Shown piece by piece: positions 29,771 to 44,672 of a DNA stretch of 64,000 nucleotides. Numbering within the stretch: the first letter of the stretch is position 1; each line of letters opens with the position of its first letter. A model generated the notes under the pieces. The model worked only from the letters and a program-made list of their open reading frames with translations, was not told the DNA's origin and made no database searches. The position numbers and the translations under genes are program-made. This DNA is from Pelolinea sp. (GTDB lineage: Bacteria > Chloroflexota > Anaerolineae > Anaerolineales > Anaerolineaceae): positions 86,797-150,796 of the forward strand of contig JAAZOD010000022.1 in the NCBI GenBank assembly GCA_012797975.1, read 5' to 3'.

Positions 29771-32515
29771 ATGCATGCGAAAAAAATTTTTGTGTTGAGA
29801 AGATTGCAAACCTACAGCAAGCTGTTTCTGTGCGGTCTGCTGTTGGTTTCCATCGGGGTGAGTTTGTTCCTTACCCTGAGCGAGATCAACCGCCAGCGGG
29901 CGCTGGAAGCCGTGCAGGATTACTGGCGCAGCGATTACGATATTTTGGTGCGCCCGGCAGGCAGTACTTTCCTGTACGATACAGCCGGCAATCGACTGAT
30001 CGAACCCAACTTCCTTTCCGGGCAGCAGGGCGGCATTACCGATGAACAGTTGGTGCTGATCAAAACGGTCGCTGGCATCGAAGTGGCGGCGCCGGTTTCC
30101 TTCCTGGGGTATTTCCCGGTCGGCATGTTGATCGAAGGCGAAGAAGTGAACGATGATCCCGCCAACGCAGAAGCACCCTGGCTGGTTTACAAAGATGTGC
30201 GCACCTTCACCATGCACGACGGCTGGCGGGATGCCACATCTTCGGATACCTTGTATACGGTTGAAAATCGGACGGACGACTTTTTGTTGGAACCTGCTAC
30301 GGGCACCATTAAATATATCGATGGCGATGGAAAGGAATATCTGTTGCCGCAAAGTATCGCTTCCATCTTTGCCAACCCTTCTAGTGGGGAAAAGAAGATT
30401 CGACTCAGCGGGAAAGAAGACTGGGAAAGCGCTCGGGCGTATTATGAGAGCGAGCACATGCAGCCCATCGTTGGATATAAATACAACGGGTTGTTCAATT
30501 TGTATCTACCCGTGGCGGCCATCGACCCGCAAGCCGAGCAGGCGCTGGTGGGTTTGGAAGAGGCAATGAAAGAAGGTAGATATTTATCAGTGGAAGATTC
30601 ATTTATTGAACCGACTGCATCTTCTATGAATTCCTATTTCATCCCGGTCCTCATCAATGAGAATTCTTTTCAAAATATCACCATCAATATCAAAACCTAC
30701 CGGCTGACGGATCCTGCGCAGGAGAACCTCTCGCGGTCTCTGAGCAGTGAAGGAATAACTTATCTGGAAGGCATGCCCAGCGAATTGTTGGGAGAGAAGA
30801 CCATCACCCTGCATGATTACTTTTTGCAGTATGTGCAAGTTTTTATGGAACGAGGGGGAACCGTTGGTGGAACGATGGGGGGAAATCTGTGGTACTACTT
30901 GCGCCCCAGCCCTGTCCAATATACACAGGCAGGCGGACAGGAAGCTGCTTTGAGCATTTCCCCGTTTAGTATCAGCCAGTATGGCCCCATTCCGGGCGTA
31001 TCAAGTGAACCTGCCCAGGGGGCATATCGGAGAGCATTAATAGATGATTTCCGTTTAATTAGAAATGGATATGGATATAGTTTTGACTTCATGCCAGTGG
31101 GTATCTATGACCTTTCAGACCTGCCGGGTTCAACTATCAATCAGGTGCCGCAGGAACTGTATTCTGCTCCGCTGGCACTGCTGCGCGAGGATGCGCAGGG
31201 GAATGTGCCTGACCGGGAAGTGACCATCATTCCCACCAATAATCCCCTGGGTTATCTGTCGCAGCCGCCGGTGGTGCTGACCACTCTGCCGGCTGCCAAA
31301 TTCCTGGCGCAGCGCGACGACTACATCAGCGCGGTGCGCATCAGGGTGGCGGGGGTGGAAACCGCTGGAGAAGATGCCCAGCGAAAAATTGAGCAGGTTG
31401 CCCGTGAGATCGAAGAGCGCACCGGCTTGCAGGTGGATATCACGCTCGGTTCTTCTCCCCAACCCATGCTGGTGGCTGTGCAGGGTTCGGAAAAAGTGGA
31501 AGCGCTGGGCAAGGTGGAGGAGTTGTGGGTGCGCCAGTTGGTGGGTATCACCCTGCAGCGCGATTTCACCCGTTTTGATGCGCTGCTGTTCGTGGCGCTG
31601 TTCTTCTCCTTCGCGGTTTTCATGTACACCAGCGCTGCGCTCAACCTGGCCGGCAGGCAGGGGGAGATCGGGGTGTTGAAAACCGTTGGTTGGAAGGATA
31701 AGCGCATCTTGGGATATTTGCTCTCCGAGGTGCTGCTGCTGGCGCTTATCACCGGCTGTATTGCTTTTGCGGCAACCCTGGGCATTACGGCGCTGCTTGG
31801 GCATCCCATCGCTTTGGATCGGGCGGGGTTGGTCTTCCCGCTCATGCTGGGTTTGTTTGCGCTGGGTACCGCGCTTCCCTTTGCGCAGGCTGCCCGTCGC
31901 AGCCCGCTTTCTCTGCTTGGCTTGGGGGAACTGCGGGAGGGAAAAGGGCAGACTTCCAATTTCAATATGCGTTCGCTACCGGGCAGGAACATTTCCAAAC
32001 AGCGGGCGCGTTTCGCCACCGCCACGCTGGGGCTCATCCCGGCATTCTTGGCGCTCATCCTGTTCTTCTTCATCACCCTCATCATGGCGGGTGAATTGAG
32101 CGGCAGTCTGCTCGGGCAGCACATTCAAGTTCTCATCCAGCCCTATCATTATGTGCTCATGGCGCTCATCCTGCTGGTGGGCCAGTTGATACTCATGAAT
32201 ATAAGCGGCATCAATATCAAGAAACGCCAGAACGAGATCGGGGTATTGCAAACGGCGGGTTGGAAACCGATCACAATGATCGCTGCCCTTTTAAAAGAAA
32301 CACTCTACAGCACATTGGGCAGCGCTTTGCTGGCTGCCGGGATCACTATCGGGCTGCTTTCGTTGCTGCAGCGTGGTTTTCAGCTTCAATTCCTGTGGGC
32401 TGTCCCGCTGGGGCTGCTTCTGGCGGGGGTGATGAGCTTGATCGCCATGCTCTACCCGCGCCATTTGGTCCGTAAAACACAGGTCGCTGAGTTATTGCAG
32501 AAGCGATCATCGTAA
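29771..32515 (+). CDS. FtsX/MacB-type ABC transporter permease
   Basis: 914 residues. One N-terminal membrane helix (about 18-38), a large extracellular domain (40-595) and two FtsX modules. The first (about 600-715) has the GEIGVLKTVGWKDKRILGYLL loop after its first helix, the second (about 745-912) has NEIGVLQTAGWKPITMIA. These QNEIGVL-type cytoplasmic loops contact the ATPase. The layout is that of MacB/LolE-like mechanotransmitters rather than a classic importer. The extracellular domain is homologous to that of the permease at 35336 (DYDILVR, GGIT, EVAAP, FLGY in both). Overlaps nothing; ATPase follows after 17 bases. Confidence 0.88.
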   Translation: MHAKKIFVLRRLQTYSKLFLCGLLLVSIGVSLFLTLSEINRQRALEAVQDYWRSDYDILVRPAGSTFLYDTAGNRLIEPNFLSGQQGGITDEQLVLIKTVAGIEVAAPVSFLGYFPVGMLIEGEEVNDDPANAEAPWLVYKDVRTFTMHDGWRDATSSDTLYTVENRTDDFLLEPATGTIKYIDGDGKEYLLPQSIASIFANPSSGEKKIRLSGKEDWESARAYYESEHMQPIVGYKYNGLFNLYLPVAAIDPQAEQALVGLEEAMKEGRYLSVEDSFIEPTASSMNSYFIPVLINENSFQNITINIKTYRLTDPAQENLSRSLSSEGITYLEGMPSELLGEKTITLHDYFLQYVQVFMERGGTVGGTMGGNLWYYLRPSPVQYTQAGGQEAALSISPFSISQYGPIPGVSSEPAQGAYRRALIDDFRLIRNGYGYSFDFMPVGIYDLSDLPGSTINQVPQELYSAPLALLREDAQGNVPDREVTIIPTNNPLGYLSQPPVVLTTLPAAKFLAQRDDYISAVRIRVAGVETAGEDAQRKIEQVAREIEERTGLQVDITLGSSPQPMLVAVQGSEKVEALGKVEELWVRQLVGITLQRDFTRFDALLFVALFFSFAVFMYTSAALNLAGRQGEIGVLKTVGWKDKRILGYLLSEVLLLALITGCIAFAATLGITALLGHPIALDRAGLVFPLMLGLFALGTALPFAQAARRSPLSLLGLGELREGKGQTSNFNMRSLPGRNISKQRARFATATLGLIPAFLALILFFFITLIMAGELSGSLLGQHIQVLIQPYHYVLMALILLVGQLILMNISGINIKKRQNEIGVLQTAGWKPITMIAALLKETLYSTLGSALLAAGITIGLLSLLQRGFQLQFLWAVPLGLLLAGVMSLIAMLYPRHLVRKTQVAELLQKRSS

Positions 32516-32532
32516 AAGGAAAGGGATTGACA

Positions 32533-33210
32533 ATGCAAGTGATTTTTGAGCATGTGTGCAAAAAATATCAGGTTGGAGATGAAACGATCACCGTTCTGGA
32601 CAAGATGAATTTCCAGATCGAAGCAGGGGATTTTCTGGTGATCACCGGGCCTTCCGGTGCGGGTAAGACCACCTTATTGAATTTGTTGGGTACGCTGGAT
32701 GAACCAACGGCGGGCAGGATCCTGTATGATGGGGTGGAGGCGGGCAGCATGGCACCCGACCGGCTGGCAGATTTCCGCCGCGATCACATCGGTTTTGTCT
32801 TTCAATTCTATAACCTCATCCCGCAGCTTTCCGCCAGGGAAAATGTCATGCTGCCGCTGCTGCCGAATAGGAAACGGCTGGAATTCGATCTGCAGGAAAA
32901 AGCGACCGAACTGTTGGCAGAGGTTGGCTTGGATGGCAAAGGCGATAAATATCCTTATCAACTCTCGGGCGGGGAGCAGCAGCGCGTGGCCATTGCGCGC
33001 GCGCTGGTCAATACCCCCAGTCTGGTGCTGGCGGATGAGCCCACCGGCAATCTGGATGCGCATATCGGCGAACAGATCTTGCGCATCCTGCAGGGATTCA
33101 ATCGCAAACAGGGTGTGACGGTCGTGCTGGTGACGCATAACGAAAAATTCGCTCATTTTGGTACGCGGGTGACCAGGATTCAGGGCCGGAAATTACACGA
33201 GGTTCGCTAA
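32533..33210 (+). CDS. LolD/MacB-type ABC transporter ATP-binding protein
   Basis: ATG at 32533 with AAGGAAAGGG upstream; 225 residues. Walker [11 protein letters not shown]-loop in [14 protein letters not shown], signature [15 protein letters not shown], Walker [13 protein letters not shown], switch His in [10 protein letters not shown]. This short form pairs with FtsX-type permeases of the LolCDE/MacAB class. It should energise the permease upstream and possibly also the fused permease at 35336, because no second ATPase is encoded in the cluster. Confidence 0.94.
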
Positions 33211-33213
33211 ACC

Positions 33214-34176
33214 ATGCGTGGTCAGATTTTGGGCTTATTCATAGGTCTTTGCTTCATCCTTCTTTTATTCAATTCTGCCTGTGTCGGTGGAGAGAGGCCA
33301 GCGATCGAACAGACCCAATCTTCTGCGGCGGGTGTCACACCGCAAATCGATATGCACCCTCCCATTTTACATGCGGGGGATTGGGAAACTCCCCAGCCGC
33401 TGCCCGCCCCCATCGATGGAGAAGGGAATGAATTAGAACCCTTCATCACGCTGGCAGGGGATGAGTTGTATTTTTTCTACGCCCCTGATCTTTCTGTTTC
33501 CGAAGCGAAACGGGCTTTGGATGGTGTTTCGGGTATTTATTATTCAAAAAAAGTGCATGAGCTGTGGTCAGAACCTGAACGATTGATACTGTCAGAAGAA
33601 AATGCTCTGGATAGCTGTGTTTATACCGATGGGCAAGTGCTGTGGTTTTGTTCAAAGCGCGATGGAAATTATGGAGAAGGTGATCTTTATATCGCTTCTC
33701 GGGTGGATGGCGTCTGGCAGAATTGGCGGAATGCCGGAAAGCAATTGAATGTGGATTACGATGTGGGGGAAATGCATCTCTCTGCGGACCAGAACACCAT
33801 GATCTTTTCCGCTTTTCGAGCAGGAGGATTCGGTCTGATCGATCTATGGCAAACCCAGCGTGTGGGGGAGGGCTGGTCTGAACCGGTGAATTTGGGAGAT
33901 GGCATCAATAGTGCTGAAATAGAAGACTATCCTTTTCTTTCGGAGGATGGCAGAGAATTATGGTTCACTTCTTCCAGCCGCTTGGGTTACCCCGGTTATG
34001 CTATTTTCCGCTCCATTGGGCAGGATGGAGTGTGGGGGGAGCCGCAGGAGATCCTCTCCAATGATGTCAGTGAGGTATCCATTGACCGACAGGGGAACTT
34101 GTATTTTACCCATTTCCTCTATGATGAGAACGACGAGCTGCTGGGATCCAAGATCTATGTGGCATATAAGAAATAA
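33214..34176 (+). CDS. Lipoprotein with PD40/TolB-like beta-propeller repeats
   Basis: Three bases after the ATPase gene; 320 residues. Lipobox FNSAC (Cys23), then a short linker and a beta-propeller. Repeated blades of the type ...ITLAGDELYFFYAPD, YTDGQVLWFCSKRDG, LSADQNTMIFSAFRAGGFG, LSEDGRELWFTSSSRLG are visible. It is surface-exposed and probably a binding partner of the permease. Several blades carry WSEP / WGEP repeats, typical of WD40-like PD40 proteins. Confidence 0.85.
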   Translation: MRGQILGLFIGLCFILLLFNSACVGGERPAIEQTQSSAAGVTPQIDMHPPILHAGDWETPQPLPAPIDGEGNELEPFITLAGDELYFFYAPDLSVSEAKRALDGVSGIYYSKKVHELWSEPERLILSEENALDSCVYTDGQVLWFCSKRDGNYGEGDLYIASRVDGVWQNWRNAGKQLNVDYDVGEMHLSADQNTMIFSAFRAGGFGLIDLWQTQRVGEGWSEPVNLGDGINSAEIEDYPFLSEDGRELWFTSSSRLGYPGYAIFRSIGQDGVWGEPQEILSNDVSEVSIDRQGNLYFTHFLYDENDELLGSKIYVAYKK

Positions 34177-34233
34177 AATTTAGTGAGGAAATTTCGATTC
34201 TATTTCATAAGGAGAGGTATCAATAAAATTTAG
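34172..34233 (+). repeat. Direct repeat AATAAAATTTAG at the left edge of the AT-rich island
   Basis: Exact 12-base copies at 34172-34183 and 34222-34233, 50 bases apart, each followed within 20 bases by GAAATTT- or AAATTT-type sequence. The first copy contains the stop region of the lipoprotein gene. An additional ribosome-site-like AAGGAGAGGT at 34209-34218 has no ATG behind it. Could be a duplication scar or a regulatory site. Confidence 0.4.
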
Positions 34234-34262
34234 AAAACCAGAGAGAAATTTTGGGAGGAATA

Positions 34263-34949
34263 ATGGGGAGGAATGTGAAATCGAGGATTGAGTCAGAATC
34301 GCAAAAGAATAACCTAAGCTTGATTATTATCATTCTTTTAGCATTGCAGGTTATCTTATCAGGTGTCGTTCTTCTGCGGATAGTAAACTTGGAGAAATTG
34401 ATAGGGGGAACAGAAGCAAGTGAACCAGTTCCGGTTTATGTAGAAGGGGTCAGTGAAGGCGATAACCCCGCCCTGGGGCCAGAGGAAGCCCCCATAACGA
34501 TCATTGCTTTTAGTGATTTTCAATGTCCCTACTGTGCATCTGCGAATCAGTTAATCAAAGAAATTATGCAAGAATATCCCAATCAGATCCGTTATGTTCA
34601 TCGTGATTTTCCATTGAAAGAGATCCATCCGGATGCTTTCAATGCTGCACTGGCGGCTCGTTGTGCTGGTGAACAGGGTCAATATTGGGAGATGCACGAT
34701 GCTCTTTTTTCCAATCAGGAGGATTTAAGTATTGAGAAGCTGAATAAACAAGCTGAAATTTTAAATTTGGAAATGGATCAATTTAATAATTGCCTTACAA
34801 CCAGAAAATATGAGAACAAAATCCTTATTGATCTGCAAGCTGGAAAGGAATATGGTGTAAATGGAACCCCAACCATATTTGTCAATGGTTACCATGTGAA
34901 TGGCGCTGATCGAGAGGCGATCATAAATATTATTAAAGATGTTTTATAA
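34263..34949 (+). CDS. Membrane-anchored DsbA-like thiol-disulfide oxidoreductase
   Basis: The ATG at 34263 follows GGGAGGA; 228 residues. N-terminal membrane helix (about 19-41) with no cleavage site, then a DsbA/thioredoxin domain. The active site is CPYC (Cys88, Cys91) in FSDFQCPYCA; the cis-proline loop is NGTPTIFVNG. A DsbA-type enzyme with CPYC is an oxidant or isomerase of secreted proteins. It lies 77 bases upstream of the gene for an eight-cysteine secreted peptide, its most obvious substrate. Base composition is AT-richer than the flanking transporter genes. Confidence 0.9.
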   Translation: MGRNVKSRIESESQKNNLSLIIIILLALQVILSGVVLLRIVNLEKLIGGTEASEPVPVYVEGVSEGDNPALGPEEAPITIIAFSDFQCPYCASANQLIKEIMQEYPNQIRYVHRDFPLKEIHPDAFNAALAARCAGEQGQYWEMHDALFSNQEDLSIEKLNKQAEILNLEMDQFNNCLTTRKYENKILIDLQAGKEYGVNGTPTIFVNGYHVNGADREAIINIIKDVL

Positions 34950-35026
34950 GGTTTTTCTAGGAGGATGGGCATAGGGGACAAAAACATGTGAGGTTAGAAC
35001 AAGGCAAGTTATAAGGGAGGTTAATC

Positions 35027-35308
35027 ATGAATACAAAAAATAGAATACAGAAAATCCTTTTATTGGGATTGGTGGCGATATCAGTGTTTCTGATTGCATT
35101 TGCGCTCGATACTCCTCAACCCGTTCAAGCAGATGCGAAATATCCTTGCGATGGTTATATATGCATTGAATTGACACAACAACAATCGCTGATTCTATGT
35201 GGTGTTTTTGAACCTGCTTATGCATATGCATGTTCGAATTGGTGTTATCAAGGAGGGGTTGGCTTTTGCGAGGGAATCGAACAATGCCAACCCTGGTGTC
35301 CTGAATAA
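35027..35308 (+). CDS. Secreted cysteine-rich peptide (eight Cys), unknown function
   Basis: Strong ribosome site AAGGGAGG seven bases before the ATG; 93 residues. N-terminal basic stretch and a hydrophobic core (about 10-27), then a signal peptidase I site Ala-Asp-Ala at 35-37, giving a mature 56-residue peptide. Mature cysteines are 41, 46, 58, 69, 73, 81, 87 and 91, an even number, enough for four disulfides. The mature part is acidic and aromatic. No family is recognised; a bacteriocin, toxin-like or signalling peptide, or a small envelope protein, are possibilities. It sits between a DsbA-like gene and a permease-peptidase gene in the same direction. Confidence 0.8.
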   Translation: MNTKNRIQKILLLGLVAISVFLIAFALDTPQPVQADAKYPCDGYICIELTQQQSLILCGVFEPAYAYACSNWCYQGGVGFCEGIEQCQPWCPE

Positions 35309-35335
35309 ACCTAATTGAAATAGAATAGACCTCAC

Positions 35336-38300
35336 ATGAAGAAACAACCTCATGCCCATTCCCTTCTGGATCGCCGCATCTGGGGCGCCATTCTGCCGGC
35401 GGCGCTGCTGAACAGCCTGGTGCTGGTGATCTTCTTTTCAGCGCTTGCCAGCCAGCAGGTGCTGGTGGATCGCACGCTCAAGGAGTACCAGCGTACCACC
35501 TACGATATCTTGGTGCGCGCTCCTGAGAATGTGACCGAGATCGAAAAAGAGTATGGCTTGGTGGAAGCCAACCATCTGAACGGCACGGCGGGCGGTATCA
35601 CTATGGAGCAGTACGCACAGATCAAAGCCATCCCCAATGTGGAGGTGGCTGCTCCCATCGCTGTGCTGGGTTATATGGATCGCATCAAAATGGGGATCAC
35701 CATCCTGGATCCCTCCCTGCCGGCTGGCATTTACCGCATCAGCGGCAGTGCAGGCATTGTGGAGGGCGGGCAGTACATCACTTCGGCGCAGTTATCTCCT
35801 TATTATGCTCTGCATACGCCGGGTGTGTCAATTGGGGCGGACGAATTGTTTACCGGATGGGGGGATACACTTTTACGCTTACGCTTGTCGATCACGATGG
35901 GGGGAAATGACCCAACAACCGATGGATTCATGATCTTTCTACCTCAATCTACCGATCGCATGCTGATCGCAGCCATCGACCCCGAGCAGGAAGCCAAGCT
36001 GGTGCATCTGGATGACATGCTGGTATCTGGCAGTTATTTACCCCAAGATCCTCCGTTTATCGATGACCACTCCTACATTCGCATTCCGGTGCTGTTCAAT
36101 ATTCATGACTATATCCAGCAGACCATCTCCGTGCAGTTGGAACGCCTGGATTTCGATGTAGACGTGAAAGAAAATTTCGCACAGCAACTGCAAACCATTC
36201 CCGATCCGGCAGCGCTGGATGCGATGGAACGCCAGCCAGTTTATGACCTGGATCTGACCCTGCAACATATCTGGCAGAAAGAAGCCATCGATTTACAGGT
36301 CGAAAATGGGAAGGTGATCGGGGTTCACGAGAGTAATTATTCGATCTTTGGGACGTTGTATGCTCCAACAGTAGTGCAGTACCGTATCTTGGAAAAACCG
36401 CCTGCTGGTTTGCCCGAGGATACATTGGTTCTGGAAGCTATTCCCCAGGGTCTTTCCACAGCAAGCAATACGGACAAAAGGGATCTATTAACGACACCAG
36501 AACTACAAGAATGGAGCAGTCTCACCGATTGGCAGGTGGAGCCCGAGGTGACCTACCGACCGCTCTCTCCTCGGTTCGAGTATAGTATTATGTTCAACCC
36601 CTATGCAGAAGGCAATGGGCAGTTCGATATCGATACCTCCACCGCGTTGGGCGGCTCTTCGCTCAATCAGGTGCCGCTGGAGACCTATCTGCCGCCTTCC
36701 GCGCTCTTGAAATATGATGAAAATGGGGAGGAATTGGAAACCCCCGTCACTCTTACACCCACCTTGAATAATGAGGGTTATCTGGTTTCCCCGCCCGATG
36801 TACTTATTTCGCTGACCTCCGCGCAGCAACTATTGGAATATGGTTGTGCGGATGTGGTACCGGATGCGACGAGAGAATCTGGCTATAAGGTGGCACTGGT
36901 GCCTTGTGAGCCGCCGGAGGATTTCATTTCCGCCATCCGCGTGCGGGTGGGCGGCATTGATGAAATGGATGCGCATGCCCAGGCGCGCATCGAACAGGTG
37001 GCGGATGAGATCGTGCGCCAGACCGGGCTGCATGTGGATGTGATGGTCGGTTCTTCCCCTCAACCGGTGCTGGTGCATATCCCCGGTTATGAAGGGACTG
37101 ACGAATTGGGATATGTCGAGGAATACTGGGTCAAGAAGAACGTCAACACCCTCATTCAAACCGGTATGAACCTGGCGGATGGCATGCTGTTTGCCGCCAT
37201 GCTGTGCGCCGGCATCCTGCTGCTTTTCAATCTCAACACCTTCTTGATGCTGGGCCGCATTTCCGAAGTGGCGCTCTACAACGCGCTGGGCTGGCGGCGT
37301 ACAGCTATATTAAAACGCTTGTTACTGCAGGTTCTACCCGTCGGCTTGCTCAGCACCGTGCTGGCTGCCCTCCTGTCTTTGGTGATCATCCATATCCTCG
37401 CGTTGCAGGTGGTTGTGGGGCAGTTCTTGCTGGTGCTGCTGCTGGAACTGGCGGCGTTCATGCTCAGCGCATTGCTGCCGGCCTGGCAAATATCCAAAGC
37501 GCCTCCGGCGGTATATCTGCAAAAAGGGGAAGCCGCCCCGCGAACAGTGTACGCTGGAAAGATGAGCATGCGCACGATCATCGGCAATAATATCAAACGC
37601 AAACCGGCTCGTTCCCTGACCATTGTTTTCAGTGTGCTGTTGACCAGTGGGCTGTTGACCTTGATCAGCTTGGTGCAAGGCGGCTTACAGGGGCAGTTGT
37701 ACGGTACCTTGTTGGGTCGCTGGATCCACTCATCCATTCAGCCCTATCACCAGCTTATGGAACTGGGTGCGCTCTTGATGACCGGCATGAATATCTTTCT
37801 TTCGACCCGCGTCAATGTGAATGAGCGCAAAGATGAGATCGGGCTGCTCAGTGCCATGGGTTGGCGCCGTCGGGATGTGGCAAATCTGTTCTGTTGGGAG
37901 CAGGTGGGCATCAGCTTGGCGGGCGCAGCGCTGGGATTGTTGCTGGGCGCGGGTATTTTTTGGGGTGCGTATCGTGAAACAGCACTTACCTCATTGCCCT
38001 GGTTGCAGACTATTCTGCTGGGCTTGGTTTTGCCGGTGGGACTATCCTATCTGACGGCTCTTTATCCGGCCTATCGGGGTGCCAGTTTGCTGCCGTTGGA
38101 AGCGCTGCGCGAAAAAGCGGGTAAAGCCAGACAGAACATGCTGCGTTCTACTGCTTTGTATGTAGGGTTGGGTTTGTTGGGGCTGTTTGCAGTGGTTTTT
38201 TTGCTCCGAAATGCTCTTTTCTCCGCTGTTTCTCCAGATATTTCTAGTTCTTCGGAGATGCCTTCCACCGGCACTGTCACTGCTGCATCCACCATCACGC

Positions 38301-39661
38301 CTGCTCCCACGCCAACCCCTGTTTTGGAGGAAGAGGCGCCGCACTATCACGTAGATGTGGTGGTTGATCCGGATCAATTGCGCATGACGGGGCAGGAGAC
38401 CATTACCTATACAAACAACACCGGTGTGCCGCTGGAGGAGATAGTGCTGCGTTTGTATGCCAACATTCCATTTGGCTTCGAGGAGATGGAAAAGGATCCC
38501 ACTATTGGGTATATGTTTTCCAACCGTATTCAATTAGATAAGGTAAATGTAGATGGGCAGCCGGTGGAGGTGGTGTTGAGCGGACACAACAGCGTCGCCA
38601 CCCTGCGCTTGGAGAATCCGCTGGCAGTCGGGCAGTCCATTACCATGGATCTGTCCTTTACCTTGCAGGGTATGGATACTCTGAATTATGTGGGTTCTGT
38701 GTGGACGGAGGATTCGCTCTTTCCCATGCTGGCGGTCTATGATCAGGATGGCTGGCGCCAGGATATCACCACAACTCCGGATATTGTGTACAGCCAGAGC
38801 GCTCGTTTCAATTATGCGGTCACTCTTCCCTCCGATTGGCAGATCGTCGCCACGGGCGATCAGCTTGCGGTGGAAACGCTGTCAACTGGACAAATGCGCT
38901 ATACCTACCAGACCGGTTTGGTGCGCGATGTGAGCATCACATTCAGCCGGCAGTTTGAGATTCTACAGCGTACGGTTGGGGATACTACCTTATATCTGGC
39001 GCTTGCCAACCCTGAAACAGACAACGAATTTCTCCTGGACAGCGCTGAAAGTGCCTTTTCTCTGTACGAACGACTGTTTGGCGAATATCCCTTTGCTTCG
39101 TTGAAGATCATTGCTTGGAAAGCTGTTCGCTCCAGTGGAAAAGAATATCCCGCTCTGATCTATGTGGGCTATAACATCGCCGAGGATTATAAAATGCAGA
39201 AGGTGATGGCGCATGAGATCGCGCACCAGTGGTGGTTCAGCACGGTGGGTAATGATATTTTTAACGACGCTTGGCTGGATGAAGGATTTGCAGAATACTC
39301 GTCCTTGCTTTATTTGCGAGAGACGCAGGGGGAAGAAGTATTTCAGAATGATCTGAAGGAATTGGAGAACAGTGCAGCCCTGGCGGATGCCGAGAGTGGT
39401 GGCAAGTACAAGGTTGGCAGCTCGCTGGAAGAGCTATCCGCATCCCATTACTATACCAATTTCGTATACGCAAAAGGTGCACTTTTTTTGGATACCCTCC
39501 GCACCCAAATGGGCGAGGAGGCTTTCTTTTCTGGCTTGCGTGCTTATTACCAGCAGTATCAATTTGGGGTAGCCGACCGGCAGGGCTTTCTGGAGGTCAT
39601 GCAGCGCTTCAGTAAAACCAACCTTGCCCCGCTTTTTGAGGAATGGATCGGCATGGACTGA
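35336..39661 (+). CDS. FtsX/MacB-type permease fused to an M1-family zinc metallopeptidase
   Basis: One uninterrupted frame of 1441 residues starting 27 bases after the peptide gene. Residues 16-38 membrane helix; 40-600 extracellular domain homologous to the permease at 29771; two FtsX modules (about 610-730 and 757-925) with SEVALYNALGWRR and DEIGLLSAMGWRRRD loops; a further helix (938-961); a Thr/Ser/Pro linker (965-1000). The M1 aminopeptidase part (about 1002-1441) has HEIAH at 1293-1297 and the third zinc ligand Glu1316 in LDEGFAEY, with SSGKEYPALIYV in place of the GAMEN exopeptidase motif. The peptidase should face outside the membrane. No second ATPase gene is present; the LolD-like protein upstream may serve both permeases. 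Confidence 0.88.
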   Translation: MKKQPHAHSLLDRRIWGAILPAALLNSLVLVIFFSALASQQVLVDRTLKEYQRTTYDILVRAPENVTEIEKEYGLVEANHLNGTAGGITMEQYAQIKAIPNVEVAAPIAVLGYMDRIKMGITILDPSLPAGIYRISGSAGIVEGGQYITSAQLSPYYALHTPGVSIGADELFTGWGDTLLRLRLSITMGGNDPTTDGFMIFLPQSTDRMLIAAIDPEQEAKLVHLDDMLVSGSYLPQDPPFIDDHSYIRIPVLFNIHDYIQQTISVQLERLDFDVDVKENFAQQLQTIPDPAALDAMERQPVYDLDLTLQHIWQKEAIDLQVENGKVIGVHESNYSIFGTLYAPTVVQYRILEKPPAGLPEDTLVLEAIPQGLSTASNTDKRDLLTTPELQEWSSLTDWQVEPEVTYRPLSPRFEYSIMFNPYAEGNGQFDIDTSTALGGSSLNQVPLETYLPPSALLKYDENGEELETPVTLTPTLNNEGYLVSPPDVLISLTSAQQLLEYGCADVVPDATRESGYKVALVPCEPPEDFISAIRVRVGGIDEMDAHAQARIEQVADEIVRQTGLHVDVMVGSSPQPVLVHIPGYEGTDELGYVEEYWVKKNVNTLIQTGMNLADGMLFAAMLCAGILLLFNLNTFLMLGRISEVALYNALGWRRTAILKRLLLQVLPVGLLSTVLAALLSLVIIHILALQVVVGQFLLVLLLELAAFMLSALLPAWQISKAPPAVYLQKGEAAPRTVYAGKMSMRTIIGNNIKRKPARSLTIVFSVLLTSGLLTLISLVQGGLQGQLYGTLLGRWIHSSIQPYHQLMELGALLMTGMNIFLSTRVNVNERKDEIGLLSAMGWRRRDVANLFCWEQVGISLAGAALGLLLGAGIFWGAYRETALTSLPWLQTILLGLVLPVGLSYLTALYPAYRGASLLPLEALREKAGKARQNMLRSTALYVGLGLLGLFAVVFLLRNALFSAVSPDISSSSEMPSTGTVTAASTITPAPTPTPVLEEEAPHYHVDVVVDPDQLRMTGQETITYTNNTGVPLEEIVLRLYANIPFGFEEMEKDPTIGYMFSNRIQLDKVNVDGQPVEVVLSGHNSVATLRLENPLAVGQSITMDLSFTLQGMDTLNYVGSVWTEDSLFPMLAVYDQDGWRQDITTTPDIVYSQSARFNYAVTLPSDWQIVATGDQLAVETLSTGQMRYTYQTGLVRDVSITFSRQFEILQRTVGDTTLYLALANPETDNEFLLDSAESAFSLYERLFGEYPFASLKIIAWKAVRSSGKEYPALIYVGYNIAEDYKMQKVMAHEIAHQWWFSTVGNDIFNDAWLDEGFAEYSSLLYLRETQGEEVFQNDLKELENSAALADAESGGKYKVGSSLEELSASHYYTNFVYAKGALFLDTLRTQMGEEAFFSGLRAYYQQYQFGVADRQGFLEVMQRFSKTNLAPLFEEWIGMD

Positions 39662-42277: not shown

Positions 42278-43417
42278 TCATGGAACTTGCTGTTTTTCCA
42301 GCGTTTTGATGAAGACCCTGCGGCGTTTGTGCTGCCGGGTTTCGAAATGTTTCCATTGTGCTTGCACATGGATGTTATCTTCCAGTTCGGGGTTGGATTC
42401 CACGGAGGTGATGCCCATTTTGGCGAAGACATCCAGCAAACTCGTCATCAACATGGAGTTTATGCCTTTTCCCTGGAAGTCTTTGCGGATTGCAATGAGG
42501 CACAGATCTCCCTTGTTGTTCTTGTGCAGCGCGTGCAGCAAATGCAGGAAACCGAACGGGAAAAGCCTGCCTCTGGATTTGCGCAGTGCTTGGGAGAGGG
42601 AGGGCATGGCAATTCCGAATGCGACCATTTTGTTTGACTCATCCAGCACGATCGGAATGAACTCCGGTGATAAGAGCCCGAGGTACTGGTCGATGTAAGT
42701 GTTGATCTGTTCCTGCGATAAAGGGGTGACTCCGTATAAGTCCTGGTAGGCTTCTTCCAGTAGTTCGAAAAGCTGTTGGGCGTATTGAAGCAGTTCCTTT
42801 TTGTTCTTCGCATTCAAATAATGGAGGTGATAGCGTTCTTCCACGATCTCGGCGAGCTTTTTGATCTTTTCCACCCCGCCGGCCGGGACCTTGATCTCAA
42901 ACTCGATCCAATCCGTATCCTTCACATAGCCGGTTTTCTCCAGATGAGTTTGGTAATAAGGGTAATTGTAGATGCCGATCAGCGTCCCCATTTCATCGAA
43001 CCCTTCCACCAGCATGGCTTCGGGATCCATGTCGGTGAATCCCAGGGGCCCGTGCACCGCTTGCATGCCTTGTTCTTGCGCCCATTCTTCCACTTTGCTT
43101 AATAAGGATTGAGAGACTTGATCGTCGTTGATGAAATCGATCCACCCGAAGCGCGCATAGGCATTCCCCCAACGTTCCTGATAGCGTGGATTGATGATTC
43201 CGGCGATGCGCCCGGCTATTTTCCCGTCTTTGTATGCCAGCCAGTATTTCGCCTGGCAAAATGCAAAAGCGGGGTTCTTGTCTTTGCGCAGCGTGTTCAG
43301 ATCATCCGAGCGCAATGTGGGAACCCAGTATGGATTATCCCGGTACAATTTGAATGGAAAATTGACGAATTCCCGCAATAATCGGCGGTTGGTTACTTCC
43401 TTGATCGTGATGGTCAT
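42278..43417 (-). CDS. GNAT-fold N-acetyltransferase-like protein, paralogue 1
   Basis: 379 residues. It opens with MTITIKEV and the family block FVNFPFKLYRDNPYWVPTLRSD, which is also found in the neighbour at 43548. Two GNAT-like halves are visible: an N-terminal half with AYKDGKIAGRIAGIINPRYQERW and FGWIDFINDD, and a C-terminal half with LCLIAIRKDFQGKGINSMLMTSLLD, which carries the Q/RxxGxG/A acetyl-CoA-binding motif. The substrate is unknown. The close similarity to the next gene shows a tandem duplication. No signal peptide. Confidence 0.88.
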   Translation of the reverse strand: MTITIKEVTNRRLLREFVNFPFKLYRDNPYWVPTLRSDDLNTLRKDKNPAFAFCQAKYWLAYKDGKIAGRIAGIINPRYQERWGNAYARFGWIDFINDDQVSQSLLSKVEEWAQEQGMQAVHGPLGFTDMDPEAMLVEGFDEMGTLIGIYNYPYYQTHLEKTGYVKDTDWIEFEIKVPAGGVEKIKKLAEIVEERYHLHYLNAKNKKELLQYAQQLFELLEEAYQDLYGVTPLSQEQINTYIDQYLGLLSPEFIPIVLDESNKMVAFGIAMPSLSQALRKSRGRLFPFGFLHLLHALHKNNKGDLCLIAIRKDFQGKGINSMLMTSLLDVFAKMGITSVESNPELEDNIHVQAQWKHFETRQHKRRRVFIKTLEKQQVP

Positions 43418-43547
43418 AAGAGCTTGTTTCCTTATATCGATAGAATAAATAAATGAATGAAAAGATTATATCTCGTGATGGAAGGAGATTTCCAGTCATA
43501 TCGGTTTTTGGAAAAATGGATCGGAGAAAGGTCGAATGGTGTTTTGA

Positions 43548-44672
43548 TTATGCTGTGAATTTCTTGATGAATATCCTGCGGCGCTTGTGCTGGCGGGCTT
43601 CGAAATGCTTCCATTGCGATTGCACTTTGTGATTGTCCTCCAGCTCCGGGTTCGATTCGACCGAACGGATGCCCATTTCATGGAAGACATCCAGCATGTT
43701 CGCCATCAGCATGGAGTTCACCCCCATGCCCTGATACGTGGGCCGGATGGCGATCAGGTACAGGTCCGCCTTGTCGTTCTTGCGCAGCGCGTGCAGGACG
43801 GGGATGAAGCCGAACGGGAACAGCTTTCCCTTGTTCTGCTGCATGGCCTTGGAGAGGGAAGGCATGGCGATGCCGAAAGCCACCATGCGCTCCTGTTCGT
43901 CCAGCACCACCGGCACGAATTTCGGAGGGATGATGCCCAGGTACTGGTCAATGTAGGCGTCCACCTGCTCGCGGGTCAGGGGGGTCACGCCATAATGCAG
44001 GTACGCTTCTTCCATCACTTCAAAGATCTGCGGGGCGAAGCGCAGCAGTTCTTTCTTGTTCTTGGCGTTGAGGAAGTGCAGGTTGTTTCGTTTGGCCACG
44101 ATCTCCGCCAGTTTGCTGATCTTCTCCACTTTCCCTTCCGGCACCTTGATCTCGAACTCCACGTAATCGGTGTCTTTGCTGTATCCGGCGTGCTCCAGGT
44201 GCTCCTTGTAATAGGGATAATGGTAGGAAGCTGCCAGGGTGGCGGTTTCGTTAAAACCTTCCACCAGCATGGCTTCCGGATCCAGGTTGGTGAAGCCCAG
44301 CGGTCCGTGGATGGCTTCCTGCTTTTCGGAGCGCGCCCAATCCTCTGCGGTCCTTAGCAGGGCTGCCGAAACCTCGGGGTCGTCGATGAAATCGAACCAG
44401 CCGAAGCGTGCGTAGCGGCGCTGAAAACGTTCTTCGAAGCGCGGGTTGAGGATGCCGGCGATGCGCCCGGCTATTTTGCCGTCTTTGTATGCCAACCAGT
44501 ATTTGGCTTTGCAGTAGGCGAAGGCCGGGTTCTTCTTCCAGTACAGGGTGTTGAGAACGTTCGAACGGATGGAAGGCACCCAGTAGGGGCAGTTCTCATA
44601 CAGCTGGTAGGGGAAATTGACGAATTGCTTCAACAGGTCAAGGGTGTGTATTTCGGTGATGGTGATGGTCAT
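43548..44672 (-). CDS. GNAT-fold N-acetyltransferase-like protein, paralogue 2
   Basis: 374 residues, the same architecture as the gene at 42278 and clearly paralogous over its whole length: FVNFPYQLYENCPYWVPSIRSN, GPLGFTNLDPEAMLVEGFNE, LYLIAIRPTYQGMGVNSMLMANMLDV and a KRRRIFIKK C terminus. The acetyl-CoA motif reads PTYQGMGVNSML. Cotranscription with paralogue 1 is likely (130 bases apart, same strand, a terminator only after paralogue 1). Substrate unknown; both copies appear intact. Confidence 0.88.
   Translation of the reverse strand: MTITITEIHTLDLLKQFVNFPYQLYENCPYWVPSIRSNVLNTLYWKKNPAFAYCKAKYWLAYKDGKIAGRIAGILNPRFEERFQRRYARFGWFDFIDDPEVSAALLRTAEDWARSEKQEAIHGPLGFTNLDPEAMLVEGFNETATLAASYHYPYYKEHLEHAGYSKDTDYVEFEIKVPEGKVEKISKLAEIVAKRNNLHFLNAKNKKELLRFAPQIFEVMEEAYLHYGVTPLTREQVDAYIDQYLGIIPPKFVPVVLDEQERMVAFGIAMPSLSKAMQQNKGKLFPFGFIPVLHALRKNDKADLYLIAIRPTYQGMGVNSMLMANMLDVFHEMGIRSVESNPELEDNHKVQSQWKHFEARQHKRRRIFIKKFTA

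Follow-up and report, generated by a model that had tools for sequence, protein, structure and literature searches.

Composition of the operon and its relatives in the genus

Six co-directional genes at positions 29771-39661 of the window (the whole 64,000-nucleotide stretch that was analysed) raise the question of what a secreted eight-cysteine peptide is doing between a thiol oxidoreductase and a permease fused to a peptidase. The first-pass annotation had described these genes, all of which are present as it stated (Table 1), and had proposed that together they make, fold, handle and finally degrade or process the peptide. The intergenic gaps in the operon are 14, 3, 86, 77 and 27 bases, and in the window genome recA lies on one side of it and plsY on the other. 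This genome is a MAG of the Anaerolineaceae (Chloroflexota), its nearest named contigs being JAAZOK010000143.1 and DMDF01000067.1. No separate small immunity gene or regulator was seen in the window. A defence-system identity was considered and rejected, as PADLOC gave no match except a generic ATPase and TM similarity.

Table 1. Features of the operon, with positions in the window
Feature	Position	Strand	Basis
Permease 1, 914 aa, two FtsX domains	29771..32515	+	Pfam domains; same-genus orthologs
LolD/MacB-like ABC ATPase (Walker A, LSGGE, LADEP)	32527..33210	+	Families, motifs
PD40 beta-propeller lipoprotein	33214..34176	+	Family match; loci comparison
Membrane-anchored DsbA-like thiol oxidoreductase	34263..34949	+	CPYC (34524-34535), cis-Pro GTP
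8-Cys secreted peptide precursor, 93 aa	35027..35308	+	Ortholog, codon pattern, ORF criterion
Signal of the precursor, PVQA/DA	35027-35131	+	Mature 58 aa from 35132 (predicted)
Permease 2, N-terminal ~935 aa of the fusion	35336..38140	+	FtsX match
Extra TM helix, Thr/Pro-rich linker and extracytoplasmic M1 domain	38150..39661	+	Fused to permease 2
M1 zinc site: HEIAH; third ligand Glu	39212-39226; 39281-39283	+	

Permease 1 carries an extracytoplasmic domain of about 550 amino acids between TM1 and TM2, and permease 2, which is about 29-31% identical to permease 1, forms a protein of 1441 amino acids together with the M1 domain. The description of these permeases as FtsX/MacB-type held for the FtsX C-terminal domains and failed for the MacB part, a genome family search finding no MacB_PCD at the locus. 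Using an FtsX domain above the Pfam cut-off and a MacB/LolD-type ATPase as evidence, we assigned the predicted complex to the type VII (FtsX/MacB/LolCDE) ABC family; it is not MacB proper, having no MacB_PCD at the locus and a separate ATPase, and its components scored below the LolCDE equivalogs (232 vs 307.75 bits for LolD and 33.7 vs 362.45 for LolCE). The large extracytoplasmic domain matched no Pfam, NCBIfam or PDB family, the likeness of the permeases to PDB entries was confined to the TM part (MacB, LolC, YtrF), and an AlphaFold model of permease 1 from a 4-sequence alignment had a pLDDT of 33.5. Anaerolineae are generally regarded as monoderm, so that analogies to the outer-membrane functions of Lol and MacB are doubtful.

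The oxidoreductase matches Thioredoxin_4/DSBA and has one N-terminal TM helix, a CPYC motif and a cis-Pro. By domain, CXXC motif, cis-Pro and membrane anchor it falls in the DsbA/Thioredoxin_4 class, with redox activity predicted, and its start is better placed at the ATG at 34263, where a good Shine-Dalgarno sequence is found. VKOR was considered as an oxidant for DsbA and was not found in genomes G000, G001 and G004. The PD40 lipoprotein, whose lipobox reads ...LLFNSAC, occurred in this genus only among the loci examined.

The mature peptide had been given as 56 residues, and its predicted mature form counts 58 amino acids. An ortholog in the same genus is 56% identical and keeps 8/8 cysteines; the substitutions between the two are distributed 28/17/45 by codon position, with an NG86 dN of 0.32 and dS of 1.18. 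Given this orthology and codon pattern we regard the peptide as a genuine gene, and it also has a strong RBS.

Within the genus, permease 1 orthologs were 77-78% identical in two genomes, and in G002 and G003 recA is near plsY without the operon between them. The operon of G001 holds two PD40 genes, DsbA and the peptide; that of G004 (contig sequence L036) consists of permease 1, the ATPase, PD40 and the permease-M1 fusion, with the PD40 stop overlapping the start of the fusion, and has neither DsbA nor peptide. DsbA and the peptide thus come or go together. Transporter genes with no small Cys-rich gene, which the first-pass annotation had named as a sign that the peptide is incidental, do exist in one sister species (L036/L038), but DsbA is missing there as well, which speaks for a joint folding-plus-cargo module and not for an incidental peptide. 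The comparison argues for peptide and DsbA being one co-varying module.

The C-terminal domain of the fusion was classified as Peptidase_M1 by its HExxH-x18-E signature (HEIAH-x18-E in the window). The M1 fusion is lineage-specific, found in the window and in two same-genus orthologs; its ligands are intact in the window and in G004, and G001 reads HEIAQ, with a zinc ligand lost. In more distant relatives (L039-L043), an M28 domain stands at the place of M1, and its zinc ligands are missing by our reading against the known M28 ligand positions. With a ligand lost in G001 and ligands missing in the M28 domains, the step in which the peptide is finally degraded is not supported: judging from these motifs, catalytic degradation is not a general property of the system, and peptide binding or trimming is a likelier role for the peptidase domains. 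The fusions of a permease to a degenerate M28-like domain lie at L039:5995-10158, L040:4928-9121, L041:4243-8334, L042:5319-9323 and L043:1004-4681. Upstream of those in L039 and L043 we observed secreted proteins that are homologous to each other and have 6 and 0 cysteines, respectively, in the mature part; Lactococcin_972 was ruled out as their identity, with no family match.

Recurrence and coupling of peptide, oxidoreductase and permease

We ran permease profile searches against 396 genomes of the class and 400 genomes of the phylum and inspected the flanks of the hits. The first-pass annotation had asked whether the slot regularly holds a short Cys-rich gene, and across many families it does. 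The six genes are not the unit, however: PD40, permease 2 and the M1 domain are accessory. The core is a trio: an anchored thiol oxidoreductase, a secreted peptide containing 8-13 cysteines, and the FtsX permease (with the ~550-residue domain) together with its ATPase. The repeated gene order is an optional MauE, a MauD/TlpA-like oxidoreductase, an 8-13-Cys peptide and the permease, with the ATPase nearby. This trio was found in many Anaerolineae families (L044, L048, L154, L158, L179, L180, L181, L182, L184-L188) and in other Chloroflexota classes (L221, L225-L228, L232), with two peptides in L181, two peptides and an S26 signal-peptidase-like gene in L044, and three tandem peptide genes, two permeases and several oxidoreductase genes in L179.

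Most relatives have a MauD/TlpA-like enzyme instead of DsbA, with CPAC, CPHC, CGPC or other motifs, and MauE (PF07291) often lies beside MauD in their clusters; no MauE was seen in the window. The MauD-like proteins score 50-68 bits against an equivalog cut-off of 188.6. DsbA was discarded as a general marker of the slot, since in relatives a Cys peptide is missing from the surroundings of most DsbA homologs.

Several variant loci were recorded. In one cluster of MauD, peptide and permease, a single gene joins an S26 signal-peptidase-like domain to a thioredoxin-like one (L225:6554-7519), and a 1676-aa open frame with the permease, usually 830-900 aa, follows MauD and a 10-Cys peptide (L184:2527-7557). 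In another genus of the family, DsbA and a distinct 8-Cys secreted peptide occur with an ABC-2-like permease and an ATPase (L105:1268-4888), and in another order of the class a MauD-like gene and an 8-Cys peptide, with the cysteine framework of the window peptide, occur with Opp-type permeases (L112:98-3604).

Coupling was counted over the 32 permease loci whose upstream sequence extended for 700 bp or more. Of these, 15 had both the oxidoreductase and a Cys peptide and 16 had neither (one of the latter, L002, is generic MacB-type), leaving a single discordant locus, L194, with an oxidoreductase pseudogene and no peptide (Fisher p=6e-8). At L194:2541-2795 the MauD-like gene is truncated before its CXXC, with an intact MauE adjoining and no peptide, which looks like decay of the module. 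An automatic count on the wider phylum set gave 3 loci with both, 2 with the oxidoreductase only, 0 with the peptide only and 13 with neither; its discordant loci, L225 and L228, have Cys-rich ORFs on inspection and were recoded by hand for the permease tree. That tree, of 50 rows, requires 10 or more changes of the trait, and the independent contrasts placed on supported branches agree in 6/6 cases (p=0.031). About half of the permease loci have no Cys peptide; therefore, the permease has other substrates too.

Peptide similarity followed permease similarity (Mantel r=0.37, p=0.001, species relatedness being not fully removed), with p still 0.002 after the closest pairs were left out. In peptide and permease alike, G475a pairs with G265 and G237a with G218, so that both have their nearest peptide and their nearest permease in another genome, not in the same-genome paralog. 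This co-variation and these pairings indicate cognate peptide-permease pairs.

To define candidate peptides, we took ORFs of 60-130 aa with a basic and hydrophobic N-terminus and at least 8 later cysteines. There were 20 matches in 917 kb of unique sequence, a set enriched for such loci, so that the 19/20 located in the oxidoreductase-permease type of slot are a statement on position, not on genome-wide frequency; the other match is an out-of-frame ORF inside an ATPase gene. Short Cys-rich secreted ORFs are thus very rare by chance. The peptides (n=20) have 8, 10, 12 or 13 cysteines, an even number in 19/20, and are predicted to form 4-6 disulfides. Their signals end in V-x-A-like sites, those of Ktedonobacteria-like relatives being twin-arginine-like (Tat-like), and their mature regions (Cys 16%, Tyr 9%, Trp 6%) look soluble and polar, with no evident retained anchor. 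In most paralog pairs the leaders resemble each other more than the mature parts do (G218/G237a being the exception), and the cores are hypervariable and patchy, with only the cysteines conserved across peptides. A peptide profile recovered one real distant relative, G344, from the 396 class and 400 phylum genomes, the rest of its hits being weak and chance-like. Against known families of bacteriocins or toxins, no peptide scored above the cut-off, and no relatives of the window peptide were found in plasmids and viral contigs.

Exiguobacterium plasmids and comparison with described systems

On the mobilizable Exiguobacterium plasmids pE73 (L240, of Exiguobacterium alkaliphilum B-3531D) and pEYLC1.1, genes for MauE, an ABC exporter and a redoxin-like protein occur with an ATPase, a permease of this family and, per plasmid, one or two 6-Cys ORFs. 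The ORFs are 55-58 aa long and lack annotation in the gene table used; no signal is evident in them, and their peptides probably leave via the separate ABC exporter. They lie beside the redoxin, ATPase and FtsX permease genes at L240:2705-2872, L240:2969-3145 and L243:2872-3048, with MauE and the separate ABC exporter divergently upstream. In pE73 the permease is followed by an MA-clan-like gene (HEFAH...EGFA) with a weak family match only.

Among described systems, the closest are the staphylococcal TMcins and the candidate RiPPs proposed by decRiPPter in Streptomyces. In the latter, precursors with at least 8 cysteines lie beside mauE (three families) or mauD (one), with transporters and no other mau genes (PMC7794033). 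These candidates are predicted only and uncharacterised, and were compared here by description; the passages considered mention no FtsX permease with a giant extracytoplasmic domain (PMC7794033). The rule of an at least 8-Cys precursor beside mauE/mauD fits the relatives, and the window has DsbA. The TMcin cluster of S. aureus G1905 likewise combines a DsbA-family enzyme, an ABC transporter and a disulfide-bonded antimicrobial peptide (PMC13252029, PMC12328743), an arrangement experimentally shown to be that of a bacteriocin (PMC13252029). TMcins have one disulfide, a retained TM helix, an S2P-type leader protease and a permease predicted to adopt a 12-TM type V fold, not FtsX-type (PMC13252029, PMC12328743); the window locus, with 8 cysteines, a V-x-A signal site and an FtsX permease, lies outside that class.

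Lactococcin 972 clusters share a signal-peptide precursor, a multi-TM immunity protein and an ABC ATPase. The window ATPase reaches 193.6 bits (E 2.6e-57) with TIGR03608, below the cut-off of 254.85; the Lcn972 peptide lacks cysteines, unlike the window peptide, and the loci tested gave no Lactococcin_972 or TIGR01654 match. YbbAP-TesA resembles the locus in that an FtsX-fold permease works with an extracytoplasmic hydrolase, which there is a separate lipid esterase, with 10 TM helices and two periplasmic domains (PMC12646458); in the window an M1 peptidase is fused, and the extracytoplasmic domain is unrelated by sequence. Methylamine dehydrogenase maturation also places a MauD/MauE pair beside a Cys-rich exported polypeptide, but the relatives' loci have no dehydrogenase genes and their MauD-like proteins fall below the equivalog cut-off. 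Keyword searches of open-access literature turned up no account of the permease-coupled system seen here, which is limited evidence of novelty.

Proposed role of the trio

Taken together, recurrence, coupling and co-variation strongly support the part of the original proposal in which the cluster makes, folds and handles a Cys-rich peptide, its final degradation excepted. Our main reading, to which we give a probability of roughly 0.55, is that the peptide is bacteriocin-like and disulfide-bonded, has its own enzyme for oxidative folding, and is matched by a cognate type VII ABC complex that serves protection or release. The precursor would be exported through its Sec signal (Tat-like in Ktedonobacteria-like relatives) and cut by signal peptidase, after which a dedicated membrane-anchored thioredoxin-fold enzyme, MauD/TlpA-like and often with MauE, or its DsbA-like replacement in the window, would form the 4-6 disulfides outside the cytoplasmic membrane. 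The cognate FtsX-fold ABC complex would then bind the folded peptide via its large extracytoplasmic domain and spend ATP on detaching it from the producer's membrane or holding it away, which would protect the producer and perhaps also release the peptide. This lineage would have gained a second, paralogous permease and, as a nonessential addition, an M1 domain for binding or trimming the ends of peptides.

The peptide itself is most likely a narrow-spectrum bacteriocin-like toxin, a reading suggested by the patchiness, the variable cores, the tandem cognate sets, the carriage on plasmids and the TMcin precedent. With Sec/Tat export, an ABC exporter is unneeded for crossing, and the type VII complex therefore most likely acts at the membrane's outer face; extracytoplasmic work is what type VII systems do (PMC12646458). 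For that complex we infer self-protection as the first role, membrane extraction or release as the second and sensing as the third; BceAB-type transporters protect against cell-wall-active peptides (PMC7038271).

Release in place of immunity, with permease and ATPase extracting a membrane-associated folded peptide outward in a TmcBC- or Lol-like manner, be it toxin or signal, is unlikely. In its favour, type VII ABC systems can pull molecules out of membranes (PMC12646458), TMcin, which is held in the membrane, depends on TmcBC for its secretion (PMC13252029), and the cognate co-variation fits release and immunity equally well; the signals, however, look cleavable, no retained anchor is evident in the polar mature regions, and the Exiguobacterium clusters carry a separate ABC exporter besides the permease. 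We consider it more unlikely still that the folded peptide is a pheromone, sensed by a permease with a peptidase-like domain as receptor through BceB- or FtsX-like mechanotransmission. The size of the extracytoplasmic domain, the mix of intact and degenerate peptidase-like domains, which suits a binding role, and the genes for a response regulator or PadR next to L179, L180 and L184 would agree with sensing, but the window operon has no sensor kinase or regulator, and hypervariable, patchy cores are more typical of toxins.

That the peptide is a structural or catalytic, MauA-like subunit of a secreted enzyme, with MauD/MauE as its normal maturases, is improbable: the adjoining MauE (PF07291) and MauD-like genes and the Tat-like signals of Ktedonobacteria-like relatives fit such a subunit, yet there is no conserved non-Cys residue, no heavy-chain gene and, in Pfam, no match to the small subunit of methylamine dehydrogenase. 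An incidental peptide in a generic envelope lipoprotein/peptidase transporter operon, as the peptide-free arrangement of L036/L038 might suggest, is hardly credible, given that such peptides occupy the same slot in many families and are almost perfectly coupled to the oxidoreductase.

Extending the bacteriocin-like reading beyond the window, the trio with its ever-changing peptides appears to represent bacterial peptide weapons or signals of a class that is largely undescribed. More specifically, and tentatively, at somewhat less than even odds, we propose a phylum-wide, partly plasmid-borne undescribed class of disulfide-rich bacterial peptides. A swappable cassette for folding and immunity would consist of a MauD/DsbA-type enzyme, a hypervariable 6-13-Cys peptide and the cognate giant-domain type VII ABC complex. 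Extracytoplasmic peptidase domains would have been added to it repeatedly for peptide binding or trimming, either as fusions (M1 or degenerate M28) or, in Exiguobacterium, as an MA-clan-like neighbor. If true, the largely uncultured Chloroflexota would gain disulfide-rich secreted peptides with self-contained, movable folding and protection genes, and a thioredoxin-fold enzyme, a short Cys-rich ORF and a giant-domain FtsX permease would together make a mining rule, one that catches peptides missed by annotation such as the Exiguobacterium ORFs. Each permease appears paired with its own ligand, which would make type VII ABC action on peptides outside the cell testable, and Exiguobacterium, being cultivable, is a host in which the hypothesis can be tested.

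Outside the operon, the window encodes two tandem paralogous GNAT-like proteins of 379 and 374 aa on the minus strand (42278-44672), which are conserved in the genus.
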